From: Schwartzia succinivorans DSM 10502
GTDB lineage: Bacteria; Bacillota; Negativicutes; Selenomonadales; Selenomonadaceae
Length of the DNA stretch: 64,000 nt
Reading direction: 5' to 3'
Assembly (NCBI RefSeq): GCF_900129225.1
Contig: NZ_FQUG01000005.1
Span: forward strand, 248,001-312,000
Below the pieces are notes generated by a model that had not been told where the DNA came from, ran no database searches, and was given only the letters and a program-made list of their open reading frames with translations. The translations under genes were made by a program, and so were the position numbers. Below, piece after piece: positions 21,498 through 26,674 of the stretch (positions are counted from its first letter, which is position 1; each line of letters starts with the position of its first letter).

Positions 21498-22271
21498 TCA
21501 GATAGATGAACATTTTTTATCAAAGTATTTTAGATTCAGTATATATCGGTGTGCACGGCGGGTTTTGTTTACAAGGACAAGACCTTCCGGCAATGAAAGA
21601 ATTTTTTCGCGAATCGTGCGAGATGTCTTATCTATGGGGGATTCAAGAGCGGACAAAGTGACGCCGTCTGCAGAAAACAGAGCTGCCTGCAATAATTGAA
21701 GACAAATCATCTCTGAGGCGTGATCTTTTAGTGGAATTTGTTTTAGCAATTCTTGATAACGCTCAAGTTCACGCTGTTTTTCTTCCAACAGGTCGTTTAC
21801 GCGGATAATGCTCTTTCTGATAATCCGAAGAAAGCCTGTGATGAATGGTGTTAAGTCGCCACGGTTTCCGTAAGCATCCGTAATCTCAAAAAGTTTATAA
21901 TAGGCCCTAAGGCTTTTCTTTGTTGTTATTGACAGACGTATACCGACCAAAGGATTTAATATCTTGGATAAATAATACGATGTGATGAACCTGGAGGTTC
22001 GTCCATTGCCATCATAGAACGGATGGATATATCCGAAGAGGTAATGAAAGATTGAGATTCGAATCAGTGCGGGGATTTGCGTATCATGGAGTATTTGCAT
22101 AGCTTGCTCCATGTAAGAGATGATTTTTGACTCCGGGTAGAGTCCTTTATGTATTATTTTTGTGTGAGAATGGACATCGACTCCGTCTGCACGGAAAATT
22201 TCCCCGTCGGGTCTGTTTTTTTCGTCATCACGGCAGACTTCATCAAGTACAAAATCATCATAAAATTTCCG
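21498..22271 (-). pseudogene. 5'-truncated Fic family gene
   Basis: The Fic core is intact: ALIRISIFHYLFGYIHPFYD and GNGRTSRFITSYYLSKIL give the HPFxDGNGRxxR AMPylation motif. The first in-frame ATG (22112) would start only shortly before the motif, but the same frame reads on upstream as FVLDEVCRDDEKNRPDGEIF and VDVHSHTKIIHKGLYPESKI, which belongs to the family, until TAA at 22274-22272. No start codon exists in that stretch, and about 100 or more N-terminal residues normal for these proteins, usually including the inhibitory helix region, are missing. The C-terminal part has a winged-helix-like domain. It is most likely a remnant, although translation from ATG 22112 (204 residues) would give a protein lacking its N-terminal domain. 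Confidence 0.7.
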
Positions 22272-22462: not shown

Positions 22463-22515
22463 CACAACACCCCCATAAGTCAGGTTGTCCGGGCCTGACT
22501 TATGGGGGTGTTGTG
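22463..22515. terminator. Perfect 22-bp stem hairpin
   Basis: Bases 22463-22484 and 22494-22515 are exact inverted repeats with a 9-base loop, GC-rich in the middle (CCCCCATAAGTCAGG). It sits 87 bases beyond the stop of the minus-strand secreted protein and between two minus-strand transcription units, so it probably ends the upstream one. T tracts are weak on both sides. The gap 22272-22601 otherwise holds only the inverted repeat and -10 box listed separately. Confidence 0.5.
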
Positions 22516-22601: not shown

Positions 22602-23162
22602 TTAGTTATCGAGGTCCGGGTTCAGGCTTGGCAGCTCCTGTGCTTTATCCTGCTCCGAGGATTTTGTTTCCGGAATCCGGTGGTTTGTGTTGCCGGAGGT
22701 GCCGGCTTCAGGTTTTTTCATTTCCGGGGAAACTGTTTCCGGTGCTTTAGTTTCGGGGAGTTTGGATTCAGAAGCTTTTACCTCGGAGGTTTTATCTGTA
22801 GTGTGTTTTGAGTCGCTGATTCTTTCTGCTGCGCGTTTATCGTCCTTTTTGACATCCTGCTTTTTATCGCCGAGTTCTTTTTTGTCGGAGATTTTGCTGT
22901 CAGCAGTTTTCTCTGCTTTGTCGGAGGACGGCTGCTCGAAGCGTCCGCGGCTTACCTGCACATTGGATCCACCTTCCTGTTCGAAGGCTCCGCGGCGTAC
23001 GTCGTATTTATGTTCTCCTGTTCCGTTGAGCGCACCGCCCTGTTCTGTTACTTCGGCAGCAGCTACAGGTGCTTCGGATGCCATGACAGGCATTGCGGTT
23101 CCGATTACTGATGCACCGATTGCCAGTGCGCAGAGTCCGTTTGTCCATTTTGTTGTTTTCAT
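22602..23162 (-). CDS. Small secreted protein, copy B
   Basis: The 186-residue product has a signal peptide (MKTTKWTNGLCALAIGASVI, cleavage likely after AMPVMAS). The mature part begins with a conserved core, GALNGTGEHKYDVRRGAFEQ then EGGSNVQVSRGRFEQP, which holds two copies of a short motif (R/S)RG(A/R)(F/Y)EQ. The remaining 120 residues are low-complexity, rich in Lys, Glu, Ser, Thr and Pro (KASESKLPETKAPETVSPEM) and presumably unstructured. The neighbour at 24150-24578 is a clear paralogue, and their upstream regions are alike too. No known family recognised. Probably periplasmic or surface-exposed; no lipobox, membrane anchor or sortase signal is seen. Confidence 0.7.
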   Translation of the reverse strand: MKTTKWTNGLCALAIGASVIGTAMPVMASEAPVAAAEVTEQGGALNGTGEHKYDVRRGAFEQEGGSNVQVSRGRFEQPSSDKAEKTADSKISDKKELGDKKQDVKKDDKRAAERISDSKHTTDKTSEVKASESKLPETKAPETVSPEMKKPEAGTSGNTNHRIPETKSSEQDKAQELPSLNPDLDN

Positions 23163-23313
23163 AGAATCATCCTTTCGGTGTGTTAGTGGTTCGGGATAAC
23201 CCGTTGACTGAATTATATGACAATTTTATGGAAGAGTTATGATAGGCTATGAAAACATTATGATTAATTATGGAAGAAGTCTGGGGAAGAATGAAAAGTG
23301 TTTGAAAAGGGAT

Positions 23314-23342
23314 GAAAAAAGCCTTCCCCGATGGGGAAGGCT
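23314..23342 (-). terminator. Terminator of the superoxide reductase gene
   Basis: AGCCTTCCCC and GGGGAAGGCT pair around a 3-base loop and on the minus strand are followed by TTTTTT. It is also the left end of the REP-like repeat. Confidence 0.75.
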
Positions 23343-23436
23343 GGATAGTAGGTAATTTGGGGTGCACCTCATCCACCGCTGACGCGGTCCCAAGCCGATA
23401 TGCCACTGGCATATCGACACCCAACAATGGGGAAGG
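23320..23436. repeat. REP-like repeat, copy 1
   Basis: The element starts with GCCTTCCCC and ends with GGGGAAGGC, so its termini are inverted. Inside are CGATATGCC-ACT-GGCATATCG (9-bp stem) and ACCGC-TGAC-GCGGT. About 76 bases (23361-23436) match copy 2 at 24044-24119 with few differences. It lies just behind a gene, as REP-type elements do. Confidence 0.75.
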
Positions 23437-23440
23437 CAAT

Positions 23441-23809
23441 TTATGATGCCCAGAGGCCGTGGAGGTTGCAGTATGCGTAGGTCTTGACGAGTTTTTCTCC
23501 TTCAGCCAGTTTGAATGTGGCGGCCGGGGCATCCTGTGGGGTGAGGTTCTTTATCTGGCAGCCGCTGCCGGTTTCGATAAGGATCCATTCGATGTAGTGC
23601 TCGGGGGTCATCGGATGTTCGACGCTTCCTACTTTGACGGTTACTGTGTCACCGGATACTGTTGCGACAGGGACGTGTTTTTCTTGAGCTGCGTCGGTGG
23701 TTCCGGGGATAAGCTCTGTCATGTTCTGGCCGCAGCATACCAGCGGGCCGCCACCGTCTTTAAGTACCTGGATGATGTTGCCGCACAGATTGCATTTGAA
23801 AAATCTCAT
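23441..23809 (-). CDS. dfx: Desulfoferrodoxin (class I superoxide reductase)
   Basis: The protein reduces superoxide to hydrogen peroxide in anaerobes without making oxygen. GGAGGG in front of the second ATG sets the start at 23809, giving 122 residues. The N-terminal desulforedoxin centre has its four cysteines (FKCNLCGN and LVCCGQNM). The catalytic iron site is complete: EKHVPV, HPMTPEHYIEWI and YAYCNLHGLW supply the histidines and the cysteine, and the EKH Glu-Lys pair is present. It is flanked by the two secreted paralogues in the same orientation, with a REP-like element on each side, so it is a separate transcription unit with its own terminator. An oxygen-sensitive, oxygen-exposed lifestyle fits a gut or oral anaerobe. 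Confidence 0.95.
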   Translation of the reverse strand: MRFFKCNLCGNIIQVLKDGGGPLVCCGQNMTELIPGTTDAAQEKHVPVATVSGDTVTVKVGSVEHPMTPEHYIEWILIETGSGCQIKNLTPQDAPAATFKLAEGEKLVKTYAYCNLHGLWAS

Positions 23810-23950
23810 GATATTCCCTCCAGTCAACATAAATATTTATTACTTCTACCTGTGTAAATTGTATTACATATTTATGGAAAAATGAAGAAAGATATATTAG
23901 CGGCGAATAAAAAAGACACAGCGAAAAATAAGGGATTGTGAAAAGAAGAA

Positions 23951-23979
23951 AAAATAGCCTTCTCCTTTAGGAGAAGGTG
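23951..23979 (-). terminator. Terminator of secreted protein copy A
   Basis: CCTTCTCC and GGAGAAGG pair around TTTA; on the minus strand TATTTTTT follows. It forms the distal end of REP-like copy 2. Confidence 0.65.
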
Positions 23980-24119
23980 GCTGCGAAGCAGACGGATGAG
24001 GTGTTCCACAAAGTGCCTGCTATGTGAATAGTGGTAGGCTTTTGTGCACCTCCTCCACCGCTGGCGCGGTCCCAGCCAATATGCCACTGGCATATTGACA
24101 CCCCTGAAGGGGAAGGCAA
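23956..24119. repeat. REP-like repeat, copy 2
   Basis: Same layout as copy 1: starts AGCCTTCTCC, ends GGGGAAGGC, with an inner AATATGCC-ACT-GGCATATT stem and ACCGCTGGCGCGGT. It has about 45 extra bases near the left end (a CTGC-GAA-GCAG hairpin and following sequence). Of the gap 23810-24149, the part to the left of it holds only AT-rich promoter-like sequence for the superoxide reductase gene. Confidence 0.75.
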
Positions 24120-24149
24120 GTAAAGAGTATTATGTATTTGTATGTCAGA

Positions 24150-24578
24150 TTATTTTACAGGGCCTGCTTCCGGATGGGGGGCTTTGCCCGGGGTTGCTTT
24201 TGAGCCTTCTACATCGCCCTTTGCCTCAGGACCCTTGACCTCGCCTTCAGGAGCCTTTTCATCAGAAACCTTGGCCTCAGGTGCTTTTGCTTCCGGAGCA
24301 TTTTCCTTGTTTGAGCCTGCCTCAGGATGCTTTTCCTCAGGTCCCTTTGGTACATGCGCGTGGATTTCATCCGGTTTAGGCTGTTCGTAGCGGCCGCGGC
24401 TTACCTGTATATCTGAGCCGCCTTCCTGCTCGTAGGCACCGCGGCGGACATCGTATTTATGTTCTCCGTTTCCGTTGAGAGCGCCGTCGTAAGCTGCCGC
24501 ATATGGCACTGCGGTACCGAGAACAGCCGCGCCTACAGCGAGAGCACAAAGTCCATTCATCCATTTCGTTGTCTTCAT
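24150..24578 (-). CDS. Small secreted protein, copy A
   Basis: The start MKTTKWMNGLCALAVGAAVL matches that of the paralogue, with GGATGGGA as ribosome binding site; an upstream in-frame ATG is not used. The signal peptide is probably cut after VPYAAA. The 142-residue protein has the same core (GALNGNGEHKYDVRRGAYEQ then EGGSDIQVSRGRYEQP) and then an Ala-Pro-Glu-Lys-rich disordered tail with repeated PEAK units (APEAKAPEAKVSDEKAPEGE). The tail has diverged entirely from copy B, whereas the core and the signal peptide are kept, so the core is the functional part. The role is unknown. Confidence 0.7.
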   Translation of the reverse strand: MKTTKWMNGLCALAVGAAVLGTAVPYAAAYDGALNGNGEHKYDVRRGAYEQEGGSDIQVSRGRYEQPKPDEIHAHVPKGPEEKHPEAGSNKENAPEAKAPEAKVSDEKAPEGEVKGPEAKGDVEGSKATPGKAPHPEAGPVK

Positions 24579-24692
24579 AAAATCCCATCCTTTCAGTGAG
24601 TACATTATGTTACGGGGTAACCCGTTGAATGCATTATATGATAAGGCTATGAAAAGATTATGGTCGATAATGGAAGGCACGTGAAAAGAGCA

Positions 24693-26447
24693 TCATTCAC
24701 CTTCGTACAGTGTAATCTGATTTTTTCCGTTGTTTTTGGAATGGTAGAGCGCATCGTCAAGATGACGGTAGAAGCTCTGGAAGTTTCCGTCGGAGGGAAA
24801 TTCAGCTATGCCGACACTCAGGGTAACAGTTCTGCCGTCGGGAAGCGGCGGTGCTTTTTTTGCGGCATTCTGTATGCGCTCGGCGATGGATTTTGCCGCT
24901 TTAAGGCAAGCTCCCGGAAGAATGATGAGAAATTCTTCGCCGCCCCAGCGTCCTACACTGTCCGTCGGCCGGATATTTTTTTCGAATACCTTTGCTATAT
25001 CCTTGAGAACCTTGTCTCCAACCTGATGACCGAATTTGTCGTTTACAAGCTTGAAGTCATCCAGGTCAATCATAATGGCGCTGAGGTGGTCGGATGCACG
25101 TTTCCCGCTGCGTTCACAGGCAATGGTATGCTGGAGAATCTGTTCGATTTCACCGCGGTTGTATATGCCCGTGAGGCGGTCCAGCTTCGCGAGCTTTGCA
25201 AGCTTTTCGTTGGCTTCCTCAAGCTCTGCCGTTGTGGCCGCGACAAAGTTTGCGAGACGCTGCACAAGCGGCATTGTGGTGGGCTGGGACTGATTTGGTT
25301 CTTCAGGCAGCCTCGGCATTATCGTGGGTTTCCCTTCCCGCATGGCAGTGGTAACGATTGCGCAGTTTTCGAGGATGACGTGACCGTTGATACGGGCAAT
25401 TTCTCCGTGGCCGTAGAATCCGAGATTCGGGGCGATGGAGTGAAATGGGCGAAGCTCCCTGTTGGTGTCCGCCTGCAGGAATTTCTGCCGCGACATGCAG
25501 CTGAAGATGAACATGCCCTGAGGTGCAAACTGAACAAGGGAACGGCTGATTTCACGGGAGGAATTTATTATTTCTCCCGGGTCGCCGTAGGAAAGGCGCA
25601 TGGTTTCTCCTTTGCGGCAGTCGGCGGTGAATATCAGGGAGCCGTCAGTTCTTGTGTCGGCAGGAAGCCGCATGAGAGGTTCTCCATCGCGCTCAAGCAC
25701 GAATGGGAACACCAGGCTTTCGGAGTCGAACTGCTTCGGAGTGACCTTGAGATAGGTTTCGTAGATACGAACTGCGGGATTGCCATTGAGGGTGTTCACT
25801 ATGCGGTCGCCTTCCACATCTGTTATGCGGAGTGAGCGGCCCAGCGGTTTCCACCCCAGACCTACGTTTGTACGGACATGAAGTTCTTCGCCTAGGAAGC
25901 AGACCGCGATAATGCCCGCCGTGAAGACTTCCTTGTTTGTAAATATATACGGTTTGTCCTGCGGACGGTAGACCGCGGCGCAGCCACCGAAAACCTCGAT
26001 TTCCGACGGAACCTCGGAAAGCTTTTTCAGGAAGGCCTCAAGGTCCGGCGTACTGACAGTCGAAAGAAGGCAGACTCCCTTCAAAAGCGGAGTTGTTTCG
26101 CAGAATTTTTTGAAGGCCTCTGCTGCCGCAAGGGTTTTGCCCATGCGCAGGTCAAATGTATGAATTTTTATTATCGCTGATTCGAAGACCGTGAAGGACA
26201 GAATCATCGTGCGGTTTGAATAAAGTCCGTTTAAAATTTCCGCATAGGAGGTTGCTCCGATAATGGTCGCGCGCGGAATCCGGTCGGTAAGATTCTTCGC
26301 GATTTTTGCGATGTCCGAATGCGATGTCCATGACGAAAATATAGATATGAGGATGCTCGAAGGGTTCTTTGGGCATTCTGAAAGAAATGCGCTGAGACAC
26401 GCTTCGAGGTCATCAACTGTTTTCAAGTAATAGGAGAATTGTTTCAT
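24693..26447 (-). CDS. FIST-sensor diguanylate cyclase
   Basis: The 584-residue protein begins at MKQFSYYLKT (26447); an upstream in-frame ATG at 26504 is less likely because the paralogue at 62563 starts the same way. Residues 1-200 fit the FIST N domain and about 200-370 the FIST C domain (LGLGWKPLG-like GLGWKPLGRSLRI, FYGHGEIARI), a small-molecule sensor. After a helical linker (VAATTAELEEANEKLAKLAK) comes a complete GGDEF domain: DRLTGIYNRGEIEQIL, DDFKLVNDKFGHQVGDKVL, and GGEEF near residue 500 with an intact RPTD inhibitory I-site five residues before it. It should make cyclic di-GMP in response to a ligand. No membrane segment, so cytoplasmic. An extended -10 box lies just upstream. Confidence 0.92.
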   Translation of the reverse strand: MKQFSYYLKTVDDLEACLSAFLSECPKNPSSILISIFSSWTSHSDIAKIAKNLTDRIPRATIIGATSYAEILNGLYSNRTMILSFTVFESAIIKIHTFDLRMGKTLAAAEAFKKFCETTPLLKGVCLLSTVSTPDLEAFLKKLSEVPSEIEVFGGCAAVYRPQDKPYIFTNKEVFTAGIIAVCFLGEELHVRTNVGLGWKPLGRSLRITDVEGDRIVNTLNGNPAVRIYETYLKVTPKQFDSESLVFPFVLERDGEPLMRLPADTRTDGSLIFTADCRKGETMRLSYGDPGEIINSSREISRSLVQFAPQGMFIFSCMSRQKFLQADTNRELRPFHSIAPNLGFYGHGEIARINGHVILENCAIVTTAMREGKPTIMPRLPEEPNQSQPTTMPLVQRLANFVAATTAELEEANEKLAKLAKLDRLTGIYNRGEIEQILQHTIACERSGKRASDHLSAIMIDLDDFKLVNDKFGHQVGDKVLKDIAKVFEKNIRPTDSVGRWGGEEFLIILPGACLKAAKSIAERIQNAAKKAPPLPDGRTVTLSVGIAEFPSDGNFQSFYRHLDDALYHSKNNGKNQITLYEGE

Positions 26448-26490
26448 CCGTGTTTTCCCCTCTGCAGAGCATAAATTAGGTATTTTGTCT

Positions 26491-26501
26491 ATTATAGCAT
26501 A
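26491..26501 (-). promoter_or_regulatory. Extended -10 promoter of the FIST-GGDEF gene
   Basis: On the minus strand the sequence is TATGCTATAAT, about 45 bases before the start codon. Confidence 0.5.
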
Positions 26502-26674
26502 CAAATATAATGGTAGATATAGTGAAATTGCGGATAGGAAAAATTTGTTTTTTTGATAGAAATAAAATTTTATACAATTTCAGTAGAAAATCTTTGCTGA
26601 GTAAGTTATACTTATAAGGATTTTTATTTTATGTGTAATCTTGTAAAGTTATACACATTGGGAGTTGGGATTGT

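Follow-up and report, generated by a model that had tools for sequence, protein, structure and literature searches.

Two paralogous, predicted exported proteins on either side of a superoxide reductase gene share a conserved core found in a few genera of Selenomonadaceae

Introduction

Lpp and OmpM are outer-membrane tethers, and the TonB-type linkers, which are rich in proline, glutamate and lysine, span the periplasm. The well-known parts of the oxygen defence of anaerobes, superoxide reductase (SOR) and rubrerythrin, are cytoplasmic iron enzymes. The Pho box and the other sites of the OmpR family are direct repeats, and phased direct-repeat ladders are typical of OmpR/PhoB-type regulators. 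Repeated conserved units with free spacers between them are typical of multi-copy precursors.

Here we describe a locus that touches on each of these systems. Two genes for exported-type proteins, termed P1 and P2, lie on either side of a SOR gene in a stretch of 64 kb that was analysed as a whole (the window). The first-pass annotation of this DNA had read P1 and P2 as a secreted, duplicated family around an oxygen-defence gene, which might mark an envelope or stress function.

Results

P1 and P2 are paralogues on either side of a two-domain superoxide reductase

Both previously proposed open reading frames were recovered on the minus strand, on which the order of transcription is P2, SOR, P1. 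P2 (positions 24150 to 24578) is a protein of 142 amino acids with a putative signal peptide, the core (24378 to 24461; E 6.5e-18 with core profile A2) and a 75-residue tail rich in Pro, Glu, Ala and Lys (16% Pro, 17% Glu, 16% Lys). P1 (22602 to 23162) comprises 186 amino acids and has the same layout, with the core at 22929 to 23012 (E 3.7e-17) and a charged tail of 108 residues. A GTG at 24680 would give P2 a longer reading frame, but the ATG at 24578 is the more likely start: both it and its ribosome-binding site line up with those of P1. The gene between them (23441 to 23809, minus strand, 122 amino acids) matches both PF01880 (E 1.7e-20) and PF06397 (E 1.8e-14) above cut-off and thus encodes a two-domain desulfoferrodoxin, confirming the flanked SOR; its match to TIGR00320 (E 3.5e-40, 137.1 bits) is below the cut-off of 146.9. 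For context, P2 is directly preceded on its strand by a gene for a FIST-GGDEF protein (24696 to 26504).

BLASTP aligned P1 and P2 with 71 identities in 154 positions (E 4e-40). Their signal peptides, assigned by eye, are of the MKTTKW(T/M)NGLCALA type and lead into a short GALNGxGEHK segment, so that the proposal of a duplicated and secreted family holds, export being predicted from the sequence. The similarity extends beyond the signal peptide: a stretch of 37 residues common to both proteins (GALNG to RFEQPS / RYEQPK) showed a dN of 0.11 at a dS of 0.92, and both cores are found by the profile. The tails had been described as completely different. Their sequences do differ, but the two have in common a high content of charged residues (43% E/D/K/R in P1 and 37% in P2).

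Several other features were noted in this region. A pair of intergenic repeats, CCACCGCTNNCGCGGTCCC followed by the palindromic TATGCCACTGGCATA, flanks SOR at 23362-23431 and 24044-24112; with up to 2 mismatches allowed, the window has no further copy. A strong hairpin with 20 counted pairs (22466-22512) lies between P1 and the downstream Fic-type gene (21501-22112). The latter matches only the last part of the Fic/DOC domain (profile positions 53-93 of 93) and may be truncated or frameshifted upstream.

The core matches no family in the libraries searched and occurs in four of 102 genera

The core of P1 and P2 reads YDVRRGA(F/Y)EQEGGS(N/D)(V/I)QVSRGR(F/Y)EQP. It comprises 28 residues and consists of two similar half-repeats of the xVRxGx(Y/F)E type. 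No known family had been recognised in it at first, and none emerged from the collections searched. Neither P1 nor P2 matched Pfam or PHROGs at E 1, and the three NCBIfam matches of P1 fell well short of the cut-off (best 15.7 of 650 bits). When 13 members were scanned, the best matches (Pfam E 0.015, NCBIfam E 0.0033) pointed to no convincing family, and phrog_3793 was met by a single member from genus g7 at E 0.029, in the spacer. Searches against PDB sequences returned one match at E 1.2, to a phage tail fibre, and in a second search none at E 10; Foldseek, with a weak model as query, found none in the PDB. A plasmid collection searched with P2 and one scan of IMG/VR gave nothing usable, and four core strings had no occurrence in the papers searched.

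We then used the core alone, as a profile built from 16 segments, to search the class. At E 0.001, 16 of 380 genomes matched. One of them (G226) was dropped, the match being in another frame of a different gene, which left 15 of 380 genomes in 4 of 102 genera, all within the window's own family, Selenomonadaceae. Two of these genomes belong to g1, the genus of the window, ten to g7, one to g14 and two to g29; within g7 the gene is present in 10 of 11 genomes. The search of the same family at E 0.01 likewise left 15 genomes (18 of 189 minus G011, G048 and G226, dropped after reading). In the genome of the window, the profile at E 0.01 matched only the P1 and P2 sites. Of 398 genomes sampled across the phylum four matched, and the match was genuine in the window's own genome only. 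A pattern scan of named genome records yielded 78 stretches, nine of which encode relatives, labelled Selenomonadaceae, Selenomonadales or Schwartzia.

Weak matches were discarded throughout. Those in G226, G011, G048, G474 and G500 were in other frames, in the interior of unrelated proteins or only nine residues long. An initial search of 100 genomes had given ten matches, eight after removal of G019 and G022. The weak matches L003, L014 and L022 lie inside a large enzyme that by eye resembles an adenylate-forming one; L015 belongs to a further unrelated protein. A g29-type second copy on another contig of G191 (7% contamination) is probably a contaminant and was excluded from the g7 loci. 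In G041 a second match, on contig C163, is truncated where the contig ends and seems to be the beginning of the same gene. Taken together, these comparisons indicate that P1 and P2 belong to a real, unnamed and lineage-restricted family.

One further observation concerns a histidine kinase (L123:2-1540) that by eye adjoins an OmpR-type regulator. Its likely sensor region contains RRGMSGRQRGMHMRGMHH, which resembles the RGM of the g7 core; this may be chance.

Ladders of CATA boxes precede P1 and P2

The regions upstream of P1 and P2 had been called similar. They can indeed be aligned over 68 nt at 72% identity through the -10 region, but the motifs had been written on the plus strand while the genes are on the minus strand. 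Part of this likeness is a phased ladder of CATA boxes of the type YTWTCATA. Upstream of P1 there are six boxes in steps of 10, 11, 10, 11 and 11 (23216 to 23272, minus strand), the last of which overlaps a TATAAT-type -10 element (23217-23212). Three boxes in steps of 11 precede P2 (24637 to 24662, minus strand), and again the last one overlaps a TATAAT-type -10 element. These are the only exact ladders of at least three CATA in the 64 kb, for which 60 Markov resamples gave one in total (mean 0.017). When the local sequence was resampled 20000 times, a ladder as long as the one observed arose in 0 cases for P1 and in 6 for P2. The exact pattern had eight matches genome-wide, five of them the P1 and P2 ladders and three inside long ORFs; the reversed pattern, as a control, had two. 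No other gene of this genome thus has an exact ladder in front of it; the two ladders are a new finding.

In the sister genome G001 the boxes of P1 are at the same positions, one of the six being no longer CATA, and the longest exact ladder has four boxes (0/20000 resamples). Mismatches between the two upstream regions numbered 3 of 30 in the boxes versus 6 of 34 between them, which is no clear difference. No ladder was seen by eye upstream of the g7 and g29 genes, and ladder regulation is therefore not conserved across genera.

Four genes of the window's genome encode an OmpR/PhoB-type DNA-binding domain and are candidate regulators. A Pho regulon was rejected as an explanation of the ladder, since PstS was not matched and no further gene is preceded by an exact ladder. 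The PstS model TIGR02136, which matched 13 of 14 control genomes, had no match in this genome.

Between the genes, terminator-like hairpins were found on the transcribed strand after P2 (23958 to 23977) and after SOR (23320 to 23342), both by consensus match only. P2, SOR and P1 are for this reason likely to be separate transcription units. Such sites are frequent here, with ten on both strands of 2.4 kb versus 3.2 expected from shuffles. A common regulation of SOR and P1 is not claimed: their promoters align loosely, but the region upstream of SOR in G001 does not, by eye, keep this likeness. Promoter consensus matches near the genes were at chance level (two versus 2.7 in shuffles), and a small hairpin in the 5' leader did not reach significance (z -0.80 to -1.59).

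Stress-related genes recur as neighbours

The proposed link to oxygen defence was followed beyond the window. In g7, a rubrerythrin gene is divergent to the family gene in eight of ten loci, or eight of the nine that can be resolved: in L080 the contig ends inside the gene, and in L071 (G035) rubrerythrin is on another contig. The outer flanks fall into two kinds on the rubrerythrin side and three on the side of the family gene. On the rubrerythrin side, an LpxB gene is next in six loci and absent as next gene in L069, and the contig ends in L076. On the other side, an MlaD-like gene is next in L069, L076 and L079 (and L080), an unnamed gene in L075, L077 and L078 (and L071), and neither of them in L070 and L073; the names MlaD and LpxB were assigned from the sequence and not by a family search. 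The pair of family gene and rubrerythrin is thus kept in these loci although what surrounds it changes.

In g29, the family gene is followed on its own strand by HSP20 in two loci and on the g29-type contig of G191 (probably contamination), but HSP20 was added to the class of stress genes, a loose one, only after it had been seen. The g14 contig shows a sensor kinase as the sole neighbour, on the other side. Of nine genomes searched, eight have SOR itself. In both g1 genomes it adjoins the family gene, and all six g7 and g29 genomes searched carry it on another contig; only in the window's genus are the two genes adjacent. The examined loci of G035 and g29 contained neither SOR nor rubrerythrin. 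The link to oxygen defence thus gains from the rubrerythrin pairs of g7 and loses by the separate location of SOR, the loci with neither gene and the hairpins between the genes of the window. We regard the recurrence of stress-gene neighbours as suggestive, the genomes of one genus being non-independent and the stress class loose.

These data bear directly on the strongest rival of the tether or scaffold that we discuss below, namely that the neighbourhood reflects chance or inherited gene order and that the family is dispensable, confined to single genera and unconnected with oxygen. The dependence among genomes of one genus, the limitation of SOR adjacency to g1, the hairpins and the patchy occurrence of the family all argue for it, as does the failure to find, by eye, a promoter element common to the family gene and rubrerythrin. 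A PerR-like box in the intergenic region of L069 (g7) was rejected; it overlaps the likely -10 element of rubrerythrin and by eye is not kept in other loci. The persistence of the g7 pair amid changing flanks speaks against mere coincidence, as do the oxygen-defence gene that also adjoins in g1 and the heat-shock gene in g29. On balance, we consider this explanation somewhat unlikely and rank it behind the tether or scaffold.

The core occurs singly or in pairs and is under purifying selection in P1

Each of the ten g7 genomes that have the gene, and likewise the g14 genome, gave two core matches, compared with one per protein in g1 and g29. In the g7 and g14 proteins the core follows the signal peptide and recurs near the C-terminus, separated by a charged spacer (45-70 residues, 58-70% charged in the nine two-core loci measured). 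The g1 proteins carry a single core and a tail. The preprotein of g29 has about 73 residues with the core at its end, so that its mature part would be little more than the core.

The sister genome G001 has the same P1-SOR-P2 order on a contig of 3 kb, from which the start of P2 is missing. In length its P1 equals that of the window, but only 18 residues follow the P2 core, versus 75 in the window. Between the P1 genes of both genomes, dN/dS was 0.06 in the core and 0.19 in the tail, with 0.03 for SOR as a yardstick, all rough values from few sites. The P1 core is under purifying selection. The dS between the P1 and P2 cores (0.92) exceeds the between-species values of 0.41 (P1 core) and 0.57 (SOR), and both species have both genes, which indicates that the duplication predates the species split.

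An AlphaFold2 model of a g7 member (11 sequences; mean pLDDT 61.9, pTM 0.27) contained one hairpin per core (40-43/48-51 and 138-141/146-149), at low confidence, and a helix from 62 to 115, with block means of 94-96 pLDDT for residues 81-110. The model of P2 was poor (pLDDT 50.4, pTM 0.12; no hairpin, tail not helical) and was set aside. The helix may act as the spacer in g7; the salt-bridge test does not single it out, the pattern of a single alpha-helix having reached significance in none of 11 proteins (lowest p 0.0515).

This architecture would also suit a secreted peptide precursor, in which the core would be set free, or would serve as a small secreted peptide with a signalling or antimicrobial role, and the spacers would do no more than separate the copies. 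The short g29 protein, the dibasic RR in each core and the combination of repeated conserved units with free spacers are consistent with such a precursor, but no peptide exporter, protease or modification gene recurred among those neighbours that were identified, and the P1 tail is itself constrained at the dN/dS given above. We consider this reading distinctly improbable. Least probable of all, and very doubtful, is a metal or oxidant sink, in which the exported core (Tyr, Asp, Glu, and Met in g7) and the charged spacers would bind iron or other metals or be sacrificially oxidised: the iron enzymes next door, the invariance of Tyr3, Asp4 and Glu11 in 16 segments and the HRDEH-type units that make up the g14 spacer agree with it, but those 16 segments have no conserved Cys or His, the g7 Met is Ala in g1, and a His-rich spacer occurs in one genus only.

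Discussion

The reading that we tentatively favour, at less than even confidence, is that P1 and P2 are stress-linked envelope tethers or scaffolds. The family would be a small, lineage-restricted set of exported envelope proteins, of which the 28-residue core is the working part, with a charged spacer that is free to change in length and sequence. We infer that the core has a binding partner, located in the periplasm or outer envelope, which the spacer keeps at a distance. A protein with one core, as in g1 and g29, would decorate its partner, and one with a core at each end, as in g7 and g14, would bridge two. The gene is probably made under oxidative or protein-folding stress. In g1, an activator with the phased direct repeats as its binding sites, for example a response regulator of the OmpR/PhoB type, is likely to switch on P1 and P2 jointly. 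The sequence itself shows the family with its architecture and spacer turnover, the selection on the P1 core, the neighbours and the promoter ladder, whereas export, binding, tethering, induction by stress and the type of regulator are inferences. The weak AlphaFold2 models, the salt-bridge result, the separation of the G035 gene from rubrerythrin, the lack of a ladder by eye in g7 and g29, the broken P1 ladder of G001 and the looseness of the stress class count against the tether or scaffold. Quite unlikely in its full form is the most specific version, an undescribed, stress-induced envelope family whose new 28-residue module, single or paired across a charged spacer, forms a bridge in the periplasm of diderm Firmicutes, and which occurs in few Selenomonadaceae genera with a different stress-defence gene beside it in each of three.

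At present, P1 and P2 stand as members of an uncharacterised, lineage-restricted family with a suggestive neighbourhood. If the favoured reading is true, a new short envelope module would be named in the diderm Firmicutes, and the oxygen defence of anaerobes would gain a candidate envelope component. The CATA ladder would be an unusual promoter architecture by which a regulator could be found.

Compared with the described tethers, the family proteins resemble Lpp and OmpM (the latter compared by description only) in that they are predicted to be exported and, in our proposal, would cross or connect the layers of a diderm envelope. They differ from both, since P1 and P2 have no lipobox cysteine at the end of the signal peptide (by eye, the only Cys of each is residue 11, inside the signal peptide) and since neither SLH nor any other known domain was matched in family members in Pfam and NCBIfam. 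The P2 tail resembles the TonB-type linkers in its Pro, Glu and Lys content, but P2 has no Pfam match at all, and its signal peptide is, by eye, of the cleavable type and not an anchor. At the level of regulation, the direct repeats of P1 and P2 share with the Pho box and other OmpR-family sites the steps of about 11 bp and the way in which they run into the -10 element. They differ in that their boxes are of the YTWTCATA type, and the missing PstS match means that a phosphate regulon is not supported.
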